Source of the DNA: Methylocystis sp.
GTDB taxonomy: Bacteria; Pseudomonadota; Alphaproteobacteria; Rhizobiales; Beijerinckiaceae
Assembly (NCBI GenBank): GCA_022843405.1
Contig: JALHNQ010000036.1
Coordinates: 1-35,243, forward strand
Direction: 5' to 3'
DNA: 35,243 bases
Both the position numbers and the translations under genes were made by a program. Shown in pieces: positions 3,281 through 14,949 of the stretch; the first letter of the stretch is position 1; each line of letters opens with the position of its first letter. Under the pieces are notes generated by a model. It saw nothing but the letters and a program-made list of their open reading frames with translations, did not search any database and had not been told where the DNA came from.

Positions 3281-5146
3281 TTAACGAGGTTGAGCGCCCT
3301 GCATCCACCAAGTCTCCAAAGTGAAGCCGAACGGGAACATCGGAAAGAGCGGGGCGCGCTCAGGATGGCGGATGGCGGCGGTATGCGCGCACCAGATGGC
3401 GTTCGTATGCTGGAGCGGCACGAAATAGAATCCTGAAAGCAATATGCGATCGAGCGCGCGCGCCGCCCAAATGCTGTCCTCATTGGTTCGCGATGCGAGC
3501 AGATTGGCGATCGCGGCGTCCAGCGCGGGCGAGGCGGCGCCGGCGAGATTAACCGAGCTTTCCCGGTTGAGACTTTTCGTCGTCCACCGATTCAACTGTT
3601 CCTGACCGGGAACCGCGGCGGGCAGCCATTGCCCGATCATCATATCGTATTCGAATCGCAGTCGCCGCCGCTGGTACTGGACTTCGTCGAATAAGCGCGG
3701 ATTGGCTTCGATGCCGATGCGTTTCGATGAAGAGGCGAAATTGAGCGCAAGCCGCTCTTCGTCGCGATCGCGAATCATGATTTCCAACGCGACCGGAACG
3801 CCATCCTTTTGCAGACGCCCATCGACGAGGACGTAGCCGGCGTCGGCGAGAAGCGCTTGCGCGCGCTTTGCGACCGTGCGATCGCGCCCCGAACCGTCGT
3901 GCTGAACCGGTCTCCAGCGGCCTTCGAGAATGTCGTCGCGAACGACGCCGGGAAAATTCGCAAGAAAGGCGCGCTCGGCGGCGCTCGCCGGACGCCCCGT
4001 CGAGGCATAGTCCGACTCGCCGAAATAGCTTTCCGTGCGGACATATTGTCCGCTGTAGAAATTGGCGTTGATCCACTCGAAGTCATACATCATCGCAATC
4101 GCTTCGCGCAGCCGCGCATCGCGAAAAATCGGTTTACGCAAGTTGAAAACAAAGCCTTCCATTCCCGTCGGCCGGCCTGGCCGCAAGACTTCCTTCACGA
4201 CGGCGCCGTTGCGAACGGCGGGGAAATCATAGCCCGTTGACCAACGCGCGGCGCTCGTCTCCTCGCGATAGTCGATCAGTCCTGCTTTCAGCGCCTCAAA
4301 CAGCGCGCCCTCGTCGCGATAGAAATCCAGGTTGATCTCATCGAAGTTATACAGCCCGCGTTGGCTCGGGATGTCGCGGCCCCAATAGTCCGGGTCGCGG
4401 CGCAGAGCCAGACGCGCGCCGACCTTGACTTCGGAAATCACATAAGGGCCTGAGCCGAGCGGGATCGTCATATCGACATCGTCAAATCGCGCCACATTGG
4501 TCGCCTGCTTTGACAGAACCGGCATGGCGGCGAGAACGAGCGGCGCTTCACGATCCGTCACGCCGGTGAGGTCGAAGCGCACCGTGCGATCGTCGAGCGC
4601 AACGGCAGACTTGACCGAGGCGAAAGCCGCGCGATACGCCGGCCGACCTTTCGACTTCAGCAGTTCGAAGGAAAACAGAACGTCCGCGGCGATGATCGAC
4701 GTCTTGTCGGAAAATCGCGCCCGTGGGTCGATGTGAAAGGTGAGAATCTCGCGAGCGTCGTCGATATCGACGGATTGGGCGATCAGCGGATAAAGCGAAT
4801 AGGGCTCGTCCTGCGACCGGGTCATCAGGCTTTCCACGACATTACCGATGATGAGTTGCGGCGCATCTCCGAATCTGGCGTTGAACGGATTGAGACTTTC
4901 GAATCCCCCGCGCCTGCCGAGCCGCAGCGCGCCGCCTTTTGGCGCGCGGGGATAGGCGTAGGGAAAATGAGCGAAATCCTTCGGCAGCGCAGGTTCGCCA
5001 TAGAGCGCGAGACCATGCGTGACGGGAGCGCTCGAAGGCTTATCGGCTAGCGCCGAAACTGATGGCAGGAACGCGATGGCTTGGATCAAAGCCGCGAGAC
5101 GCGCGGCGGCGATCATGCGTCCGATTGCGTGGCCAGCGTGAAGCAT
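3281..5146 (-). CDS. ABC transporter periplasmic solute-binding protein, family 5 (YejA-like)
   Basis: Extracellular binding subunit, probably for oligopeptides or a related solute. The 621-residue form starts at the ATG at 5146, which follows a GGAGG six bases upstream. The open frame extends to 5560, but that extension looks unlike protein and is rejected. A signal peptide (residues about 10-35, ending VSALA) precedes the mature start. Family 5 features are GLALYGEPALP near the mature N-terminus, the conserved GGALRLG and FESLNPF block, the SGPYVISEVKVGARLALRRDPDYWG block, and a C-terminal WW motif (TLETWWMQ). YejA-type proteins (about 600 residues) share the ALPKDFAHFPY opening. No permease or ATPase gene is adjacent, so the rest of the transporter must be elsewhere or lost. 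Confidence 0.88.
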   Translation of the reverse strand: MLHAGHAIGRMIAAARLAALIQAIAFLPSVSALADKPSSAPVTHGLALYGEPALPKDFAHFPYAYPRAPKGGALRLGRRGGFESLNPFNARFGDAPQLIIGNVVESLMTRSQDEPYSLYPLIAQSVDIDDAREILTFHIDPRARFSDKTSIIAADVLFSFELLKSKGRPAYRAAFASVKSAVALDDRTVRFDLTGVTDREAPLVLAAMPVLSKQATNVARFDDVDMTIPLGSGPYVISEVKVGARLALRRDPDYWGRDIPSQRGLYNFDEINLDFYRDEGALFEALKAGLIDYREETSAARWSTGYDFPAVRNGAVVKEVLRPGRPTGMEGFVFNLRKPIFRDARLREAIAMMYDFEWINANFYSGQYVRTESYFGESDYASTGRPASAAERAFLANFPGVVRDDILEGRWRPVQHDGSGRDRTVAKRAQALLADAGYVLVDGRLQKDGVPVALEIMIRDRDEERLALNFASSSKRIGIEANPRLFDEVQYQRRRLRFEYDMMIGQWLPAAVPGQEQLNRWTTKSLNRESSVNLAGAASPALDAAIANLLASRTNEDSIWAARALDRILLSGFYFVPLQHTNAIWCAHTAAIRHPERAPLFPMFPFGFTLETWWMQGAQPR

Positions 5147-5354: not shown

Positions 5355-7817
5355 TCAGAACTGAAGTTTGACGCCTCCGGTGAAACTGAGCGGCTGGCCG
5401 GCGATGAGACCCGCGCCCTGCGCCGTCGCCAATCCGCCGGTCGGCCAGACGATCGGCGTTTGAAACGGAGTTCCGGCGATGAGCGTGTTGCCGAGAACGA
5501 ATGCGCCGGAGGCATAGGTCCGATTGAAGACGTTCTGGACGTCGAAAAAGAGCTCGACATTCTTGATATAGAAGTTTGTCAGGTCGTGCTTATAGTGAGC
5601 GTTCAAATTGACGAGGCTGTAGCTCGGCACAGTGGTGTAATTGGCGTTGTCGATCGTATAGTCGCTCTTGAAAATATATTCGACATAGGCGCCGAGACCG
5701 GCGAGATCGCCGTGCGGCTGATCATATCCCAAGCGCATCGTCACCGTATGCGGCGGCACATTGGGGATTCGGTTGCCCGAACGATTATAAACAACAGGAA
5801 CGCCCCCGATCGTCCCGAGATCGTCCCAAAAATTGGTGAAGAACTGATTGTTGAACGTATAGGCCGTGATCAGCCGCCATCCCTCAAACGGCCGCCAATC
5901 GGCGTTGAGTTCGACGCCGCGGTGGAGAGAGGCGGGAGCGTTTATGAAATAGCTGACGAGCGCATTGTTCAACCTCAAAATCTCGTTGCGATGCCATTCG
6001 TTGAAGCCGGTCACGCTGACCGTGAGATCCGAGCGCGGCGTCCAGTCGATCCCGAGATCGACGCCCATGTTGGTTTGCGCCTTCAGCGGATTTTGTCCGA
6101 TGCCATTTCGCGTATTGGTGAGAAACACGAATGTCGGCGTGCTGTAGGCGGTCGCATAGCGCGCTCTCACCTGCCACTCGGGACTATAGCGATAGGTGAG
6201 CGACGCTTCCGGCGCCGTGTTCCAATAGTCATTATCGACGGCGATCTGAGTGGGAAATCTGGGCGCCAGATTGGCCGGGTAGTTATAGGCGGTATTGACG
6301 CCCCAGACCCGGTTCCAGTTGGCGCTGAAGCCGACGACGCCGGTCAGGCCCGGCGCGAGCGCAATTTCTTCGCGCGCGCGCAAGCCGATGTTTGACGTGT
6401 AGTAATCCATCTTGCCGATTTGCGCGCCGATTGCGCCGCTATACCAAGTATTCGCGATCTGGTTAAAGAGCGGGTTGGTGGTTTTGGCGTTGTTATAGAA
6501 GAACTGGAGAAAATGCGTCGCCGGGAAGCCGAACAGCGGCGCATGACTGGTAATGTCGGTCTGCGCGGTGATGCCCACCGTCGGGCCCCGCAAAGCCACC
6601 GGGCCGCCCTGGCCGCCCGGGCCAACGATCGGCGGCGGCCAAGCTCCATTGATGTTATCGAGATAGTCGTAAGTGAATTGCGATCGCCACGTGGTGCTGC
6701 TGTCAAAATCATGTTCGAACTGAACGCCGCCGATCTGTCTGAGCGCGTGCGAGTGAGTGCCAAGCTGCCAGACGCTTTGGCGAACGGTCGCGCCGGAGAT
6801 GCCATTGGCCGGCACGTTCAGATTGTTGCACAAGTTGAGATTCAGGGCGACCGGGATAGAGCAGCCATAATTTTTTTGAAACGGATTGAGGTAGAACACC
6901 GTAAAATTTTCTCGGTTGATGAACTCCGCTCGCAAGTCGTTGACGAGATATTTCACGATGACTCGATCGGTTGGCGTCACATCCCATCTGCCGAGAAGCT
7001 TGGCTTGCTTGCCTGAGAAGGAATTGCGGGTCCAGCCGGTGCTGTTGGCGTCGGAGGCGAAAAACGACAGATCGAAGTCGCCGAGCACGCTGTCCTTCAC
7101 CGCCTTGCCGACGCGAATGTAATTGTTGACATAGCCGAAGCTGCCGAATTCCGAACCTGTGTGGACGCCGTCGATTTGGGCGCCGGTAAAGCTGCGAAAA
7201 TTGATCGCGCCGCCATAGGCGTAATTGCCAAAGAGAGCGGATGAGGGGCCGCGATAGACGTCGACGGCGGCGTAAGCGTGCGGATCGAGCAGGTCGGTGC
7301 GGCCATTGCCGTCCGCCGTCATGATCGGAAAGCCGTCTTCCCACAGCATGATGTTGCGGACGCCGAATGGGAACCCGACGCCGAGCTGGTTGCCCGAGCC
7401 GCGAATCGAGATCATCAGATCGCGCGCGTTATTGCCCTGTTGGATGGAGACGCCGGGGCTGTAATTAAGCACCCCTCGGACGTCGACCAGCGGCGTTGGC
7501 GACAGGAATTTGGTGTCGATCATCGTCACCGTCTCGCCAGGCGGATCGCGGTAGATCGGCAGCTTCGCGCGGGCGGCGCTAAAGCCGGGCGCATATCCAG
7601 CTTCGCCCGCCGTCGACTCCCTCACCGCCGGAGTCGTCTCAGTCGGCGTTCCGACCGTGGGTCCCCGCGGAACTGCTCGAACGCCCGCGCCGGTGCGAAG
7701 CCGGCCGCCGATGTCGATCGTCGGAAGCGCGTGCTGCGCCTGCGCAAGGGACGCGGAGGACAGGAGAGCGAGAGCGCCGAGGGCCGCTCCATGCATCAAT
7801 TTCGACCGGGCGTTCAT
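5355..7817 (-). CDS. mbnT: TonB-dependent outer-membrane receptor, candidate methanobactin receptor MbnT
   Basis: An 820-residue outer-membrane active-transport receptor driven by TonB. Residues 1-27 form a signal peptide (ending SLAQAQ). A plug domain spans about 100-225 (VNYSPG-like segment, ISIRGSGNQLG, MLWEDGFPI, VDVYRGPSSALFGNYAYGGAI). A 22-strand-type barrel follows and ends in KLQF with the terminal Phe used for barrel assembly. No N-terminal signalling (STN) domain is evident, and no FecI/FecR-type genes are adjacent. An AGGAAAG ribosome site precedes the ATG at 7817. The gene begins 30 bases after the mbnH-like remnant on the same strand, so they look like one operon. The MbnT name rests on this context beside mbnM, mbnF and mbnS; a copper or siderophore receptor of another kind cannot be excluded. 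The frame is complete. Confidence 0.72.
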   Translation of the reverse strand: MNARSKLMHGAALGALALLSSASLAQAQHALPTIDIGGRLRTGAGVRAVPRGPTVGTPTETTPAVRESTAGEAGYAPGFSAARAKLPIYRDPPGETVTMIDTKFLSPTPLVDVRGVLNYSPGVSIQQGNNARDLMISIRGSGNQLGVGFPFGVRNIMLWEDGFPIMTADGNGRTDLLDPHAYAAVDVYRGPSSALFGNYAYGGAINFRSFTGAQIDGVHTGSEFGSFGYVNNYIRVGKAVKDSVLGDFDLSFFASDANSTGWTRNSFSGKQAKLLGRWDVTPTDRVIVKYLVNDLRAEFINRENFTVFYLNPFQKNYGCSIPVALNLNLCNNLNVPANGISGATVRQSVWQLGTHSHALRQIGGVQFEHDFDSSTTWRSQFTYDYLDNINGAWPPPIVGPGGQGGPVALRGPTVGITAQTDITSHAPLFGFPATHFLQFFYNNAKTTNPLFNQIANTWYSGAIGAQIGKMDYYTSNIGLRAREEIALAPGLTGVVGFSANWNRVWGVNTAYNYPANLAPRFPTQIAVDNDYWNTAPEASLTYRYSPEWQVRARYATAYSTPTFVFLTNTRNGIGQNPLKAQTNMGVDLGIDWTPRSDLTVSVTGFNEWHRNEILRLNNALVSYFINAPASLHRGVELNADWRPFEGWRLITAYTFNNQFFTNFWDDLGTIGGVPVVYNRSGNRIPNVPPHTVTMRLGYDQPHGDLAGLGAYVEYIFKSDYTIDNANYTTVPSYSLVNLNAHYKHDLTNFYIKNVELFFDVQNVFNRTYASGAFVLGNTLIAGTPFQTPIVWPTGGLATAQGAGLIAGQPLSFTGGVKLQF

Positions 7818-7847
7818 CTTCTTTTCTTTCCTATTGGGGGTTGAAAC

Positions 7848-8804
7848 TCATTGAGCAGGCGCACGCGTTGGTCCGCTTGCGGTCGACGCCGGTTTCCACG
7901 GGTCGGCGAAGCGGGGGGAAGTCAGCAGGGAGTCGTCGGTCAGCGTTTTCAGAAAGGCGATCAGATCGTTCTTTTCCTGGGGCGACAGATCAATCGGGAC
8001 GATCAGCGCGCTCTTGTTCGGATTGTAGCGACCGTCGCCCTTCAGGGGACCGCTGGCGACGTTGCGGCCGCCGGCCGCGTAAATGTCGATCACGTCCTCG
8101 AGCGTCGCGACGCTGCCGTCGTGCATATAGGGCGCGGTGACGGCGATGTTGCGCAGGCTCGGCGCGCGAAACGCGCCCATCTCGGTGGGGTTGTGGGTAT
8201 TTTCGAACACCCCGCGATTGGGCTCCGGATAGGCGCCCTTGCCGTCGAGATCGTAAAGACCGGTATTATGAAACGGCGTCTCGATCTCGCGGGTTTTCGC
8301 GTGATAGAACTGATCGTCGAAATTCACGCTGCCATGGCAGTGGTGGCACTCCGCCTTTTCGCCGAAGAAGAGGTCCTTGCCGCGAGTCTCTTCGGGAGTG
8401 AGCGTCGCCTTGCCGAGAAGATAGAGATCATATTTCGAGGAGGCCGACACCACGCCGCGCTCGAAGGCCGAGATCGCCTTGATGATGTTGCCGAAGCTGA
8501 TCGGGTCGGCCTCGCCGGGAAACGCCGCCGCGAAGTCGCGACGATAGCCCGCGTCGCCCGCAAAGCGCGCGACGATTTCTTTGCGGTTGTTGTCATTGAC
8601 GCCCATTTCGATGGGCTCTTCGCCAAACAGCGGCCCTTCCATCTGCTTTTCGAGCGTCACCATCGCCGGATTGGCCCAGGTCAGCGTGGCGCGCCAGGCG
8701 GCGTTGGCGATGCTCGGAGAATTGCGCGGCGTATGCTGGCCGGTGGCGCCGACGCCGACCGGCCTTCCGTCGGTGAAGGCCAGGCGCTGCTCATGGCAGG
8801 AGGC
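7848..8804 (-). pseudogene. mbnH: MbnH-like di-heme cytochrome c peroxidase, 5'-truncated
   Basis: Intact MbnH is a periplasmic MauG-like di-heme enzyme that converts a tryptophan of its partner MbnP to kynurenine. Here 318 codons remain. Seen: the second heme site CHHCHG, the FHNTGLYDLDGKGAYPEPN segment, the RAPSLRNIAVTAPYMHDGS block and a normal C-terminus. Reading upstream of the first available ATG (8663), the frame continues with family-like sequence (NSPSIANAAWRATLTWANP, AFTDGRPVGVGATGQ) up to SCHEQ. That is the end of the first CxxCH motif; the expected first Cys codon is replaced by Ala and then TAA at 8808-8810. The signal peptide, the N-terminal region and the first heme Cys are therefore gone. 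No start codon restores export. I judge it non-functional. It ends 30 bases before the TonB receptor gene. Confidence 0.85.
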
Positions 8805-8917
8805 AGCTTATCGAGCCCGAGGAGCCCTTGCCGGCGCCGCCGGATATTTTCGGTTACTTTACCTTGCCGACTTTTGAACTCGACATTTTTCCGGGGTGGC
8901 AAGGCCTCGCGCGATGA
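8805..8917 (+). pseudogene. mbnC: 3' remnant of a gene read as mbnC (last 36 codons)
   Basis: An open frame with no start codon runs from about 8807 to a TGA at 8915-8917. It encodes a tail containing PAPPDIFGYFTLPTFELD and FPGWQGLAR. Two observations show it is the end of a real gene. First, the stop overlaps the mbnM start as ATGA, the same coupling seen at mbnM-mbnF. Second, the tail resembles, from memory and without an alignment, the C-terminus of MbnC (a GYF...FE.D.FPGW pattern). MbnC partners the iron enzyme MbnB to make the oxazolone and thioamide groups of methanobactin, and its gene normally precedes mbnM. Everything 5' of this tail is replaced by the truncated mbnH. The family call is inference from position plus remembered motif. 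Confidence 0.7.
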
Positions 8918-10215
8918 CCGGCGCGCCGCTGTGGCGCGGATACTGCTTCCTATTCGCCAGCACTTCCGCAGCCGCTTTCATCATGCAGATCGATCTCGCA
9001 ATGGTTGCGAGATTAGGCGGCCGTGCGTCGGGCGCCTACGCGATTCTGATGCGCGTCACGCTCCTCGATGTCGCGGTCACCATCGCTTGCGCCGCCGTCG
9101 CCGCCATTGCGCTCGGACATGCGCAGAAAAATGGGGAGACGGCCGACGCGATTGAGAAGACCAGCGCGCTCGCCCTCGCGCTGGGCGCCGCGACGGCGAT
9201 TTTCGGCTTCTTCGCCTATCCGATTTTTCTCGGCGCGCTCATGGGCGACGCGGCCGCCGCTCCCTATGTCGGGGCGCCGATCCTTTGGCTTGTCGCTGGC
9301 GCCCCCTTTCGCGTTCTTTCGAATACGCAAGGATTTTTGTTGCATGCGCTCGGACGCGGCGGCTCGGTGCTCGCTTGGAAGCTCGCGGAAATTCCGGTGA
9401 AAGCTGCGGCCAATATCCTCTTCATGCAGACGCTTGGGTTTGGATTCGCTGGCTGCTTTCTTGCTGGCTGCTTCGTTGCGGCGGCTTCGTCATTCTGGTT
9501 GTGGAGCCGACTGCAAGCGCATGGCGCGCGAAGAATCCGCATTCCCGAAATCGCTTTCATACGCTCCTTTCTGAGCGGAACCTTCTGGGAAGCTCTGCGG
9601 GTGCTCTCGCCGCAAGCGGCGATGCTCTTCACGCTGACGCTCTTCTCGCTTCCTTGGCCCAACGGCGCCAATGGTCATCGTCTCGACTCATTTGCCGCCG
9701 CCCAAACCTTCATGCTGTTCATTCTTGGTCCGTTGCTGACGTTGACGCGCTTTCTCGCCATTCACCTGCCGACGAAATCTCAGGGCGACTGGCCGCCCGC
9801 GCTCGCGCCAGTCGTCCGGGTCGGCGCGCCAATCGCGCTGACGGCGGCCATTTTGCTACTGCTCGGGCGCGATTGGATCGGCGCTAATCTCTACCGCCAA
9901 GAGGGAACTTGGTGGTCCGTCTTCGTCGCTTGCCTCGCCCTTTCCTTGCCCATCCGCTTCGTTGGAAGCCTCGTCCGAGGCCTAACGCTCGCTCGCAGGT
10001 CCTTCGCAGAGCTGACCTCCGTGGATATGCTTTCGCAGTGGCTCATCGCGCCGCTGTTCATTCTAATTGGCCTTTCAGGCAACTGTCCGGAGATCGCCTA
10101 TCAGTCTCTGATCTGGCCCGAAGTCCTCGCCGTTTTCTTGCTCTGGCGCGGTTTTCGATCCGCGCCAGAGGAGCCGGCTGGCGTTTCGTTGCCCTTGAAA
10201 GGACATGTCCGATGA
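8914..10215 (+). CDS. mbnM: MATE-family efflux protein, probable methanobactin exporter
   Basis: A 433-residue inner-membrane protein with about 12 hydrophobic segments and the MATE layout of two similar bundles (first bundle from FASTSAAAFIMQIDLAMVARLG, second after about residue 225). MATE proteins export cationic or amphipathic compounds using H+ or Na+ gradients; MbnM is the proposed exporter of apo-methanobactin. The ATG at 8914 is preferred over the in-frame GTG at 8896 because it forms a 4-base ATGA overlap with the upstream stop. Its own stop overlaps the mbnF start in the same way. The MbnM name follows from the order mbnC tail - MATE - FAD monooxygenase - sulfotransferase, which matches Methylocystis methanobactin operons. 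With mbnA and mbnB absent it may have no native cargo. Confidence 0.82.
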   Translation: MTGAPLWRGYCFLFASTSAAAFIMQIDLAMVARLGGRASGAYAILMRVTLLDVAVTIACAAVAAIALGHAQKNGETADAIEKTSALALALGAATAIFGFFAYPIFLGALMGDAAAAPYVGAPILWLVAGAPFRVLSNTQGFLLHALGRGGSVLAWKLAEIPVKAAANILFMQTLGFGFAGCFLAGCFVAAASSFWLWSRLQAHGARRIRIPEIAFIRSFLSGTFWEALRVLSPQAAMLFTLTLFSLPWPNGANGHRLDSFAAAQTFMLFILGPLLTLTRFLAIHLPTKSQGDWPPALAPVVRVGAPIALTAAILLLLGRDWIGANLYRQEGTWWSVFVACLALSLPIRFVGSLVRGLTLARRSFAELTSVDMLSQWLIAPLFILIGLSGNCPEIAYQSLIWPEVLAVFLLWRGFRSAPEEPAGVSLPLKGHVR

Positions 10216-11864
10216 GCGTGGAGCGGGTTCCTGTTCTCATTGTCGGCGCCGGCTACGCTGGCTTGTCGGCGGCGGCGCTGCTCGCCTGGCGCGGCGTCCC
10301 CTGTCTTCTGGTGGAGCGACGCCCCTCAACGTCGCGACTGCCGAAAGCACATGGGATCAACCGGCGCAGCATGGAAGTTTTGCGTGTCGTCGAGGGTCTG
10401 GAAGATGCCCTGTTTGCGGCAAGCCGCACGGGCGCCAATGAATCCACGCTCATCATCGCCGAGAGTGTAACAAGTCCGCCGATCGAAACGCTCGTGACCA
10501 AGATGTCGCTTGACGCGACATGCGTGTCGCCGAGCAAAATATGCACGGCGGGCCAGGACCGGGTCGAACCGGTCTTGCTGCGCTTCGCCCGCGAGAACGG
10601 CGCCGAGATTAGGTTTTCGACGGCGCTAGCTCGCTTTTCGCAGCGAAGCGACGGCGTTGAAGCGATCTTGCGCGACGAAGCTTCCGGCAAAGAGACAACC
10701 ATATTGGCGGACTACATGATCGCCGCTGACGGCGCTGGCGGAACGATCCGCGACGCCGGCGGCGTGTCGATGCAAGGGCCGGGATTTCTTGCCGACACGA
10801 TCTCGGTTCTGTTTGAGGCCGATCTCAGCGCGATCCTGCCAAGCGATGGATTTGTGCTCTATTATTTGCGCAACGCGGCGTTCAGCGGCGCCTTCGTCAC
10901 CTGCGACGAACCCAACCACGGCCAGATCAACATTGAATATGAGTCCTCGCGCGATCAGGAATCCGATTTCGACGAAGAACGATGCAAAGAGCTCGTTCGA
11001 CAATCGATTGGCGTCCACGACTTAGCGGTGAATATTCTCGACATTCGTCCCTGGCGGATGGCCGCGCTTGTCGCCGACCGCATGTCCTTCGGACGGGTGT
11101 TTCTTGCGGGCGACTGCGCGCACATCACGCCGCCGGTCGGTGGGCTCGGCGGACAGGCCGCAATTCAAGACGCCGCGGACTTGGCCTGGAAACTGGCGCT
11201 TGTGGTCAAAGGCCATGCCGCGCCCGTTCTGCTCGACAGTTATGAGGCCGAACGAAAGCCGGTGGCGCGGATCGCGATCGCGCGAGCCATCGCCAATTAT
11301 GTCGAGCGCCTCCTGCCCGATCGTCAGGACTTGCGCATTCGGGAAGACGAATACGGCCTTCTCGAAACCGCGATGGGCTATCGATATCGCTCGGACGCGA
11401 TCATCGCCGACGACGCTGACGACGGGGCGCCGGTCGAGGATCCTTTTCGCCCGACCGGCGCGCCGGGAACGCGCCTTGTGCATGTCTGGCTGAGGCGGGG
11501 CGAGGAGACGATCTCCTCTCACGATCTGGTCGGACGCGATTTCATGCTCTTCGCCGGGCCGCAGGGAAGCGACTGGATCGAGGCGGCGCAGCATGTCGGC
11601 CTTCGTTCAGGCGCGCCGCTTGGCGTCTGCCGCTTGGGATTTGACGTCGACGATCCCGAAGGGCTTTTTCTGCCGCGTCTCGGCGTTTCGCCTGAAGGCG
11701 CGCTGCTCGTGCGGCCCGATGGATTCATTTGTTGGCGTTCGCGAGGCCATAGTCCCCGTCCGCTTTCCACTCTGGAAGAGAGTTTTGCGCGCGTGCGCGG
11801 CTTCGCAACGCGCGAATCCAACGGCATTCGCGAGACCGCGCTCGCGGGCGCAACCTCGGCGTAA
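10212..11864 (+). CDS. mbnF: FAD-dependent aromatic-hydroxylase-type monooxygenase, methanobactin tailoring
   Basis: A 550-residue cytoplasmic flavoprotein of the PheA/TfdB class. Seen: the dinucleotide motif VGAGYAGLSAA at residues 11-21 followed by the acidic strand end VERR; the middle DG motif (AADGAGGTIRDAGG); the flavin-phosphate GD motif LAGDCAHITPPVGGLGG near residues 298-314; and a C-terminal thioredoxin-like domain as in the family. In Methylocystis methanobactin operons MbnF is proposed to modify the N-terminal heterocycle (pyrazinedione formation from an oxazolone). The start at 10212 overlaps the mbnM stop as ATGA. The frame is complete with all cofactor motifs, so the enzyme itself looks functional. 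In isolation the sequence could be any phenol-type hydroxylase; context decides the name. Confidence 0.82.
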   Translation: MSVERVPVLIVGAGYAGLSAAALLAWRGVPCLLVERRPSTSRLPKAHGINRRSMEVLRVVEGLEDALFAASRTGANESTLIIAESVTSPPIETLVTKMSLDATCVSPSKICTAGQDRVEPVLLRFARENGAEIRFSTALARFSQRSDGVEAILRDEASGKETTILADYMIAADGAGGTIRDAGGVSMQGPGFLADTISVLFEADLSAILPSDGFVLYYLRNAAFSGAFVTCDEPNHGQINIEYESSRDQESDFDEERCKELVRQSIGVHDLAVNILDIRPWRMAALVADRMSFGRVFLAGDCAHITPPVGGLGGQAAIQDAADLAWKLALVVKGHAAPVLLDSYEAERKPVARIAIARAIANYVERLLPDRQDLRIREDEYGLLETAMGYRYRSDAIIADDADDGAPVEDPFRPTGAPGTRLVHVWLRRGEETISSHDLVGRDFMLFAGPQGSDWIEAAQHVGLRSGAPLGVCRLGFDVDDPEGLFLPRLGVSPEGALLVRPDGFICWRSRGHSPRPLSTLEESFARVRGFATRESNGIRETALAGATSA

Positions 11865-11912: not shown

Positions 11913-12920
11913 ATGTCCATCCTTTCGCCGGAACTCCACATGCCTCCCAAATCAGAACGAGTCCTGGCGGTCGATCCGAAAAGGCTCGAAACGATCCAGA
12001 CCCCATACCAGGACTTCAACCGGATTTCGCGCGCCAGCGGCGTTTTGGAAGTCCTGCCTCTGCAGGCGAAGCGCCAATTCAGATCCTACTATTTTTTCAA
12101 TCCTCCGAAGTGGAGAGTCTGGGCGCGTTCGCTGAGCCGAAGCCAACGCATGGAGCCGTCCTTCGCATCGATCGGCGCGGTGCGCTCCGGCACGTCTTTC
12201 CTGTCCTCTTATATTCTTCAGCATCCGCACGTGGTCCTGCCCTTGTCGAAGGAAATCTCCTTCACGGATACGATGCGCGAACTCATGGCGCATTTTCCGA
12301 CGCTCGCAGCGCAACGGGCGGCGGAGCGGCGCAACGGCGGCGCGATCACAGGATACTGCACGCCGGTGATGCCCAATCCGCTATGGATATTTCTGGCGAA
12401 GTCGATGTTTCCGAATATGCGCATCATATGCGTTCTGCGCGATCCGGTTGATCGCGCGTTTTCGCATTGGCGGTGGGATCAGAAGCGGTTCATCAGCCGC
12501 AAGATGCAGGATCCGCACTGGAGGGGTTTTCCAGATTTCGAAACCCTGGTTAAGACCGAAATCGCGACGATACGCGGCGGCGGCATGGAGCCGCACGCAT
12601 TTTCGGGCGCGCGCGCCGGCTATTTGCGGCACAGCATCTACGCGCCCTTCATGCGTTTGCTCTTCGAGCAATTCGGCAGAGATCGCGTTTTCATCGTCGA
12701 CGCGGCGAAATTTTTTCAAGGCCCGCGATCGACGGCGAAGGAGATTTATGCGTTTCTCGGACTGCCCCAGGTTGAGCCGCTCCTGATCGAGGAGCGCAAT
12801 TCCGGGCCTTCCGGCGAGCTTGATGTCGGGGCTCGGGAGGATTTGGCGGCGTTTTTCCGGCCCTATAATGAAGAGCTCTACGCGCTGCTCGACAAGGATT
12901 TCGGCTGGGGCGCCCGATAG
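11913..12920 (+). CDS. mbnS: PAPS-dependent sulfotransferase, methanobactin tailoring
   Basis: A 335-residue enzyme that transfers sulfate from PAPS. The 5'-phosphosulfate loop [14 protein letters not shown] lies at residues 88-101 and the 3'-phosphate motif [16 protein letters not shown] at 173-188, both standard for the NodH/heparan-type superfamily. The C-terminal [21 protein letters not shown] segment is also typical. Methanobactins of several Methylocystis strains carry a sulfated threonine, and MbnS is the proposed source. It follows mbnF by 48 bases with a GGAGAG ribosome site (AAAGGAGAGTGGTCGA before the ATG), so it is the last gene of the cluster. The frame and PAPS sites are intact. 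The substrate is inferred from context, because sulfotransferase substrate range cannot be read from sequence. Confidence 0.82.
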
Positions 12921-13032: not shown

Positions 13033-14070
13033 ATGAACGCCCACGCCAGGACGCCCGCGGTCGCCGCGCCGGCGCCGCTTGTCGACCCCTTCGGGCGGAC
13101 GATCTCCTATCTGCGCGTCTCCGTCACCGACCGGTGCGATTTTCGCTGCGTCTATTGCATGTCCGAACATATGCAGTTCCTGCCGCGGCGCGATCTGCTG
13201 ACGCTCGAGGAGCTCGATCGACTCTGCTCCGCCTTTGTCGAGCGGGGAACCAAGAAGCTGCGCATCACCGGCGGCGAGCCGCTGGTGCGCCACGACGTGA
13301 TGAAGCTGTTTCGGGCTCTGTCGCGCCATCTTGCATCCGGCGCGCTGGAGGAGCTGACGCTCACCACCAACGGCTCGCAGCTTTCGCGTTTCGCGACCGA
13401 ACTCGCCGACTGCGGCGTGCGGCGGGTCAATATCTCGCTCGACACGCTCGATCCCGACCGATTCAAGGCGCTGACCCGAACCGGCGCGCATGAACAGGTG
13501 CTGGCGGGGATCGCCGCCGCTCGCGCCGCCGGTCTCAAGGTGAAGCTCAACGCGGTGGCGCTGAAAGGCGTCAACGAAGACGAGTTTGTCCCGCTCGCGC
13601 GCTTCGCGCATGAAAGCGGAATGGACATGACCTTCATCGAAGTGATGCCGCTCGGCGAACTCGATGGGCCGGAACGCGCCGACCAATATCTGCCGATGCA
13701 GGCGGTTTGCGATCGGCTGAGCGAAGCCTTCACGCTCGACGAGATCGACTATCGCACTGGCGGACCGGCGCGTTACATGCGCGCGCGCGAGACCGGCGGG
13801 CGCATCGGCTTCATCACGCCGCTCACCCATAATTTCTGCGAGAGCTGCAACCGGGTGCGCGTCACCTGCACCGGGACGCTTTATATGTGCCTTGGCCAGG
13901 AAGACGCGGCCGACCTTCGCGCGCCGTTGCGCGAAAGCTCAGACGACGCGCTGCTGCACCAGGCGATCGAGACCGCCATCCTGCGCAAGCCCAAGGGCCA
14001 CGATTTTGTGATCGATCGCGCGGCGCCGGCGCCCGCCGTCTCTCGCCATATGAGCATGACGGGCGGCTGA
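13033..14070 (+). CDS. moaA: GTP 3',8-cyclase, molybdenum cofactor synthesis
   Basis: Radical-SAM enzyme that rearranges GTP in the first step of molybdopterin synthesis (with MoaC). The 345-residue product has the N-terminal radical-SAM cluster C35-x3-C39-x2-C42 ([11 protein letters not shown]), the [13 protein letters not shown]-binding block, and the C-terminal second 4Fe-4S site [14 protein letters not shown]. It ends in the invariant Gly-Gly tail (MSMTGG) needed for activity. The ATG at 13033 follows GAGGACAGG; the in-frame stretch back to 12820 overlaps mbnS in another frame and is rejected. The gene lies 112 bases after mbnS and is probably separate from the mbn unit. It is followed within 3 bases by a dehydrogenase-family gene. 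Confidence 0.95.
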
Positions 14071-14073
14071 TTG

Positions 14074-14949
14074 ATGGAGCCCACGTTAGTCGCTTTTATC
14101 GGCCTCGGGGTCATGGGCTATCCCATGGCCGGCCATCTCCATCGCGCCGGCCACAAGGTGCGGGTCTACAACCGCACGATGGCCAAGGCCGAGAAATTCG
14201 CCGCCGCCCATGCCGGCGCGGAAGGGTTCTCGACTCCGGCCGAAGCGGCGAATGGCGCCGAATTCGTCTTTTCCTGCGTCGGCAATGACGACGATCTGCG
14301 CGCGGTGACGGTCGGCGGCGCGGGCGCCTTCGCGGGCATGTCGGCGGGCGCGATCTTCGTCGATCACACGACCGCCTCGGCCCAGGTCGCGCGGGAGCTC
14401 CACGCGGCGGCGGCCGAGCGCGGGTTCGGCTTCGTCGACGCGCCGATCTCCGGCGGACAGGCCGGGGCGGAAAAAGGGGCGCTGACCGTGATGTGCGGCG
14501 GCGATCCGGCGGCCTTCGCCAGGGCGGAGCCGGTGATCGCCTGCTACGCGCGCGCCTGCCGGCTGATGGGGCCGCCGGGCGCCGGGCAGCTCACCAAGAT
14601 GGTCAATCAGATCGTCATCGCCGGCCTGATCCAGAGCCTGGCCGAGGCGCTGCATTTCGCCGGCGCCGCCGGACTCGACGCGGAGAATGTCGTCGACCTT
14701 CTCAAGAACGGTGCGGCGCAGTCGTGGCAAATGGAAAATCGCACGAAAACAATGGTTGCGGGCGAGTTCGACTTCGGCTTCGCCGTCGAATGGATGCGCA
14801 AGGATCTGGCGATCTGCCTCGCCGAAGCGCGGCGCAACGGCGCGCGCCTGCCGGTCGCGGCGCTCGTCGACCAGTTTTACGCCGAGGTGGAACGGATGGG
14901 CGGACGGCGCTGGGACACGTCGAGCCTCATCGCGCGGCTTGAACGATGA
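14074..14949 (+). CDS. NAD(P)-dependent oxidoreductase, 3-hydroxyisobutyrate dehydrogenase family
   Basis: A 291-residue beta-hydroxyacid dehydrogenase. It shows the Rossmann motif FIGLGVMGYPMAGHL at residues 8-22, followed by an Arg-containing strand end (VYNRT) that hints at NADP preference. It also has the substrate-binding DAPISGGQAGAEKG block and the catalytic Lys in GQLTKMVNQ. Members act on 3-hydroxyisobutyrate, tartronate semialdehyde, glyoxylate or related acids; the exact substrate is not decidable here. Glyoxylate/succinic-semialdehyde reductase or tartronate-semialdehyde reductase activity would fit one-carbon metabolism but is only a guess. It starts 3 bases after the moaA stop, so the two are likely co-transcribed despite unrelated functions. 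Confidence 0.85.
   Translation: MEPTLVAFIGLGVMGYPMAGHLHRAGHKVRVYNRTMAKAEKFAAAHAGAEGFSTPAEAANGAEFVFSCVGNDDDLRAVTVGGAGAFAGMSAGAIFVDHTTASAQVARELHAAAAERGFGFVDAPISGGQAGAEKGALTVMCGGDPAAFARAEPVIACYARACRLMGPPGAGQLTKMVNQIVIAGLIQSLAEALHFAGAAGLDAENVVDLLKNGAAQSWQMENRTKTMVAGEFDFGFAVEWMRKDLAICLAEARRNGARLPVAALVDQFYAEVERMGGRRWDTSSLIARLER

Follow-up and report, generated by a model that had tools for sequence, protein, structure and literature searches.

The window, the whole stretch of 35,243 nucleotides of Methylocystis sp. that we analysed, carries what appears to be a methanobactin locus from which the biosynthetic core is missing. Its minus strand holds a solute-binding protein gene (SBP), a receptor gene and the remnant of mbnH, and its plus strand holds the remnant of mbnC followed by exporter and tailoring genes and moaA:

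3281..5020 (reading frame continuing to 5560), minus strand: ABC-type solute-binding protein gene, SBP (PF00496), left landmark
5355..7817, minus strand: mbnT, TonB-dependent receptor, 820 aa, reading frame whole, assigned from its position and its likeness to mbnT of relatives
7848..8804, minus strand: mbnH remnant, 318 codons, covering positions 33-336 of the 336 of TIGR04039
8804..8805, no strand: putative deletion joint, with 4,875 bp at the same spot in the closest intact relative, L037
8805..8917, plus strand: mbnC remnant, two bases plus the final 36 codons with their stop (TIGR04160, E=1.9e-9)
8914..10215, plus strand: mbnM, MATE-type methanobactin exporter, 433 aa, whole (NF045578, 518 bits, cut-off 285)
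10212..11864, plus strand: mbnF, FAD monooxygenase, 550 aa, whole (NF045577, 881 bits, cut-off 800)
11913..12920, plus strand: mbnS-like sulfotransferase gene, 335 aa, whole (PF13469, PF00685; same place in relatives)
13033..14070, plus strand: moaA, right landmark in relatives (TIGR02666, 370 bits, cut-off 284)

At 8804/8805, the minus-strand mbnH remnant, which reads from ASCHEQ onward, directly abuts the last 36 codons of mbnC, confirming to the base the junction that a first-pass annotation of this DNA had placed there. Upon aligning the region with ten relatives, we found that likeness on the mbnH side stops at 8804 and likeness on the mbnC side starts at 8805 in all ten. The annotation had mbnH cut at its first heme motif with SCHEQ left, and the mbnC tail beginning at 8807; the cut does lie in that motif, but the Ala codon of C-A-S-C-H survives as well, and while the 36 codons indeed align with MbnC, the homology begins two bases earlier, at 8805. 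These codons (8807-8914, plus strand) are followed by a TGA at 8915-8917 that overlaps the mbnM ATG at 8914-8916, as had been described. The annotation had staked its reading on the tail aligning with MbnC proteins, which it does: the 36 residues match the MbnC model TIGR04160 at positions 149-180 of 181 (E=1.9e-9), where their 37 bits lie far below the whole-protein cut-off of 185 bits because the tail is a fragment. The tail protein is identical at 36 of 36 residues to that of the closest intact relative (L012/L037), and a profile search of the assembly found this tail (model positions 147-180) and no second copy of MbnC.

The region 7848-8804, which the annotation had proposed to align with MbnH, matched the MbnH model TIGR04039 over positions 33-336 of 336 with E=8.4e-127. 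Missing from the remnant are the start and signal peptide region, along with the Cys that opens the first heme motif. Its frame is open up to the joint and meets a TAA one codon past it, leaving the remnant with no preceding start codon, and the longest open reading frame with a start inside the remnant spans 7848-8663 (271 aa). We infer that mbnH is dead, as its product should not work without the first heme cysteine and the signal peptide. MbnH-family matches occur in all 39 genomes of the genus, with eight in the window's genome; the mbnH remnant is the best of these, and the other seven are weaker, those with scores listed falling under the cut-off. The loss of mbnP had been put forward as probable, and a profile search with the MbnP model TIGR04052 returned no match in the window's genome, although three other MbnM-bearing drafts (G029, G030 and G031, among 22 MbnM-bearing genomes) also have none; MbnP matches were found in 21 of the 39 genus genomes. 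The MbnP/MbnH copper-protein pair is hence incomplete here on both sides, with MbnH lacking its first heme Cys and its start, and with the MbnP match absent.

The receptor, exporter and tailoring genes remain, as had been read earlier from the sequence. The reading frames of mbnT, mbnM, mbnF and mbnS are whole, MbnM and MbnF score above their curated cut-offs, and the sulfotransferase gene is in place; its name mbnS follows from that place and the Pfam domain, with no NCBIfam model matching 11913..12920. The mbnT product is 86% identical to that of L037 over residues 1-820. Rfam and tRNA scans of the window returned no matches.

Comparison with relatives revealed the arrangement from which this locus probably derives. 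Among the 39 genomes of the genus, MbnM exceeded its cut-off in 22, and a 23rd has an MbnM fragment at a contig end, whereas MbnC exceeded its cut-off in 21, the window's genome alone having a fragment match. The same pattern held across 397 genomes of the family, drawn evenly from a larger group: MbnM was over the cut-off in 29 and MbnC in 28 of the same 29, the exception being the window's genome. We fetched the stretches around MbnM as 23 loci, and named records with MbnM (10 loci) include Methylocystis rosea SV97, Methylocystis sp. B8 and the metagenome-assembled genome ND1_Bin_1_1. As read from L037 and L040, the parent locus comprises a minus-strand part with SBP, mbnT, mbnH, mbnP and a DUF2946 gene, and a plus-strand part with a small gene without family, an ECF-sigma/mbnA gene, mbnB, mbnC, mbnM, mbnF, mbnS and moaA. 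The ECF sigma gene continues in frame into mbnA (8269-9198 in L037 and the same place in relatives): of 10 loci examined, 9 gave a match in one frame and L050 showed a frame change; passages of PMC3621798 noted this fusion in 2013 for M. rosea SV97 and strain SC2. The gene order of the window and the landmarks on both sides match those of the relatives (SBP, mbnT and mbnH on one side; mbnM, mbnF, mbnS and moaA on the other), including the intact loci of M. rosea SV97 and ND1_Bin_1_1, whereas one block, from the mbnH start through mbnP, the DUF2946 gene, the small gene and ECF-sigma/mbnA to mbnB and most of mbnC, is absent from the window. By BLASTN, 12 of the 23 fetched loci matched both flanks, and an ungapped alignment of 10 of these put the missing DNA at 4,875-4,967 bp between collinear flanks; those of the window are 93% and 91% identical to the L037 flanks.

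Some relatives depart from this arrangement in other ways. In G028 (VGEB01000066.1; loci L035/L057), the locus is rearranged, with a copy of the mbnC tail and a full mbnM lying downstream of mbnS and next to moaA, and with a remnant matching mbnM residues 1-76 between mbnC and mbnF. The mbnH near mbnC/mbnM in G023 (L048, about 13684-14601) is split by a frame change and the neighbouring mbnP is broken in two; another place in that genome holds a full-length mbnP/mbnH pair. Two mbnT-like genes stand in tandem in G025:C56 (part of it in L050), behind mbnH, and likewise in tandem in G031:C10.

The collinear flanks and the single missing block of ~4.9 kb indicate one event, in support of the earlier claim that mbnA, mbnB, the greater part of mbnC, probably mbnP, and the 5' end of mbnH went in a single event. 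Not in that list but also within the block were the DUF2946 gene, another small gene, the mbnA-fused ECF sigma gene and the divergent intergenic region. In a comparison of the sequences, no bases were common flush to both parental breakpoints. The word AGCTT occurs near both, right at the joint for mbnC but two bases further on for mbnH, and within 60 bases the parental flanks have no longer word in common than an 8-mer, which is out of register. We considered an insertion element and flush microhomology and set both aside, having seen neither at the breakpoints, with AGCTT out of register by two bases on the mbnH side. Without flush homology, and with the shared words out of register, neither a repeat nor an insertion element fits the joint as well as end joining without homology. 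We suggest that, in a methanobactin-producing Methylocystis lineage, one recent deletion of ~4.9 kb by such end joining (illegitimate recombination) would have taken mbnA with its ECF sigma factor, mbnB, most of mbnC, mbnP, the mbnH start and the divergent intergenic block shared by the two sides.

The joint might instead be an artefact, if the DNA were intact in the organism and a misjoin had skipped the 4.9 kb, the skipped piece having been lost or left out of the bin. The genome is known from a single draft assembly of 98 contigs (99.98% complete, contamination estimate 2.33%), from which a short contig can escape the bin, and remnant genes without significant decay are also what an intact locus would present. 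Yet no repeat lies at the joint, and with nothing longer than an out-of-register 8-mer in common within 60 bases, the parental flanks give an overlap assembly no ground to join them; the lost block was found on no other contig of this nearly complete assembly; and a random misjoin would not yield the collinear order. A misjoin at a repeat is likewise unlikely, because the other genome matches to 7848-9200 were three (40 of 192 candidates scored), of 46-69 bp, all at 8088-8163 and none at the joint. We therefore regard an assembly artefact as improbable, though to be reckoned with. Still less credible is that the core genes were moved to a plasmid or a second cluster and not lost. Two MbnM/MbnC matches do occur in some relatives (G008 and G114), but a search of the window's genome with a 5,001-bp piece of L037 spanning the lost block matched at the two flanks and otherwise gave 10 hits of at most 47 bp with E>=0.001 (40 of 195 first-look candidates scored). 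The part of L037 holding ECF-sigma/mbnA was unmatched in that genome, a search that a short mbnA of another type could escape. Three DUF692/MNIO genes are present, all with the bufferin maturase as nearest model, two of them above its cut-off and the third below it; all three stay under the MbnB cut-off, and their best long alignment to MbnB is at 24% over 248 residues. A DUF2063 gene adjoins two of these MNIO loci (L072 and L073, of L072, L073 and L074). With MbnC present as a tail, MbnP unmatched, every MNIO protein below the MbnB cut-off and the lost DNA without a long match, a second mbn cluster or a transplanted core is very unlikely, and the whole-genome search that the first-pass annotation had called for thus found in this assembly neither mbnB, mbnP or the rest of mbnC, nor the mbnA region as known from L037. 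One deletion, recent and illegitimate, of ~4.9 kb that turned a methanobactin producer into a genetic non-producer and left an early remnant is the account we consider likely.

To date this loss, we fitted a branch codon model, from several starts, on per-gene trees of ten sequences (the window and 9 of the 23 fetched loci); the 14 other loci were left out because one side of the locus was missing, because they were too distant or, for L047, by choice. For the mbnH remnant, dN/dS was 0.057 on the window branch versus 0.038 on the rest (p=0.49) and was below 1 with p=1.3e-5. The values for mbnT (0.211 versus 0.165, p=0.22) and for the control moaA (0.085 versus 0.044, p=0.21) were slightly raised without being significant, and neither mbnM (0.180 versus 0.169) nor mbnF (0.111 versus 0.153) nor mbnS (0.118 versus 0.133) differed significantly. 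With the branch of L037 marked in its place, values were alike or higher (mbnT 0.250, p=0.053; mbnM 0.296, p=0.16), indicating that the window branch is not out of the ordinary, given that an intact locus behaves in the same way. The mbnH dN/dS has an upper limit of ~0.16, interpolated from the profile, from which we infer that, assuming drift after the loss, no more than ~13% of the branch postdates it. The lack of significant relaxation in the mbnH remnant, mbnT, mbnM, mbnF and mbnS points to a recent loss if the joint is not an assembly error; judged from these sequences, the loss is recent relative to the split from the nearest relative compared, and an assembly error would give the same picture.

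The deletion probably also removed the promoters of the genes that it left. The divergent intergenic block inside the deleted stretch is conserved in the 10 aligned relatives, with TTGACAAG invariant, and is probably the promoter region that serves mbnP-mbnH-mbnT in one direction and the biosynthetic genes in the other. A weak scan for sigma-70-like sites found three in the intact stretch versus 1.2 expected and none in 7700-9100 of the window, a null result of little weight given that 0.3 were expected there. The start of mbnT follows 30 bp after the broken mbnH, and the text of PMC9601215 places mbnPH upstream of mbnT in Methylocystis sp. SB2. With the divergent block lost, the genes that remain are probably not expressed, or are expressed from chance promoters; mbnM, mbnF, mbnS and mbnT would be without their native promoters and at the start of decay.

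From its gene content, the cell should be unable to make methanobactin. MbnB with MbnC acting on MbnA is presented as the core machinery in PMC8888699. PMC8788703 reports MbnC as dispensable for the N-terminal ring, one of two, in OB3b, so it is the absence of mbnA and mbnB that carries the argument for non-production. A laboratory counterpart is the Methylosinus trichosporium OB3b mbnABCMN mutant, in which the core was likewise removed and which PMC9601215 describes as unable to produce its methanobactin. That mutant was engineered and lost mbnM too, whereas the window would record a natural event in which mbnM was kept and mbnP and the mbnH start are gone. The presence of mbnT, mbnM, mbnF and mbnS in a genome annotation does not, by this example, imply methanobactin production.

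Methanobactin, which is secreted and can be shared, scavenges copper for the particulate methane monooxygenase, and the PmoA/AmoA family is a marker of this copper enzyme. The window's genome carries a PmoA/AmoA-family gene and, with a whole MbnT-type receptor and its biosynthetic core absent, falls among the receptor-bearing non-producers. Since mbnT is whole and is the only match to itself in the genome at E<=1e-60, and since a PmoA/AmoA-family gene is present, importing the methanobactin of others would be useful to the cell, and the receptor might still import that of neighbours; mbnT would be the one remaining part of possible use, taking up others' copper-methanobactin if another promoter serves it. 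One might go further and see a selected cheater, a strain that lost the core, retains the receptor under selection and lives on its neighbours' methanobactin. The whole and not significantly relaxed mbnT accords with such a cheater, as do two genomes of the set (G003 and G012) that have no MbnC, MbnM or MbnP match and yet carry MbnT-like receptors, 63-65% identical and beside a 66% identical solute-binding protein gene by identity and neighbourhood comparison. These two receptors (L075, 5.0-7.4 kb; L076, 5.2-7.7 kb) also lie beside a two-component system. Receptor-only strains are described as well: passages of PMC12997803 list Methylomicrobium album BG8 and Methylocystis sp. Rockwell with mbnT and without methanobactin biosynthesis genes, and cite a paper on 'methanobactin theft'. 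Against selection for cheating, however, the exporter and tailoring genes, useless to a cheater, look as constrained as the receptor, and mbnT, whose start lies 30 bp behind the broken gene, has lost its likely promoter. Because the surviving genes look equally constrained, what the pattern shows is that the loss is recent, not that the receptor is selected, and selection on the receptor alone could not be told apart from mere recency. We consider a selected cheater unlikely, and it is with similar reserve that we entertain the locus as a natural snapshot of a public-good producer turning cheater, now reliant on the methanobactin of its sister strains.

Receptor-bearing non-producers are already known, and BG8 and Rockwell share with the window a receptor without a biosynthetic core; here the exporter, the tailoring genes and both gene stumps are still in place, so that the route of loss is visible. 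The first-pass annotation knew of no described example of this exact scar, and we found no report of one in the open-access literature searched. The locus would be a fresh intermediate in the origin of receptor-only methanotrophs, of a kind for which that literature yielded no other case. As a recent deletion flanked by whole genes, it would amount to a natural mutant lacking the core, mbnP and mbnH at once, and, if the snapshot holds true, it would capture a step toward the receptor-only state of other members of the genus.
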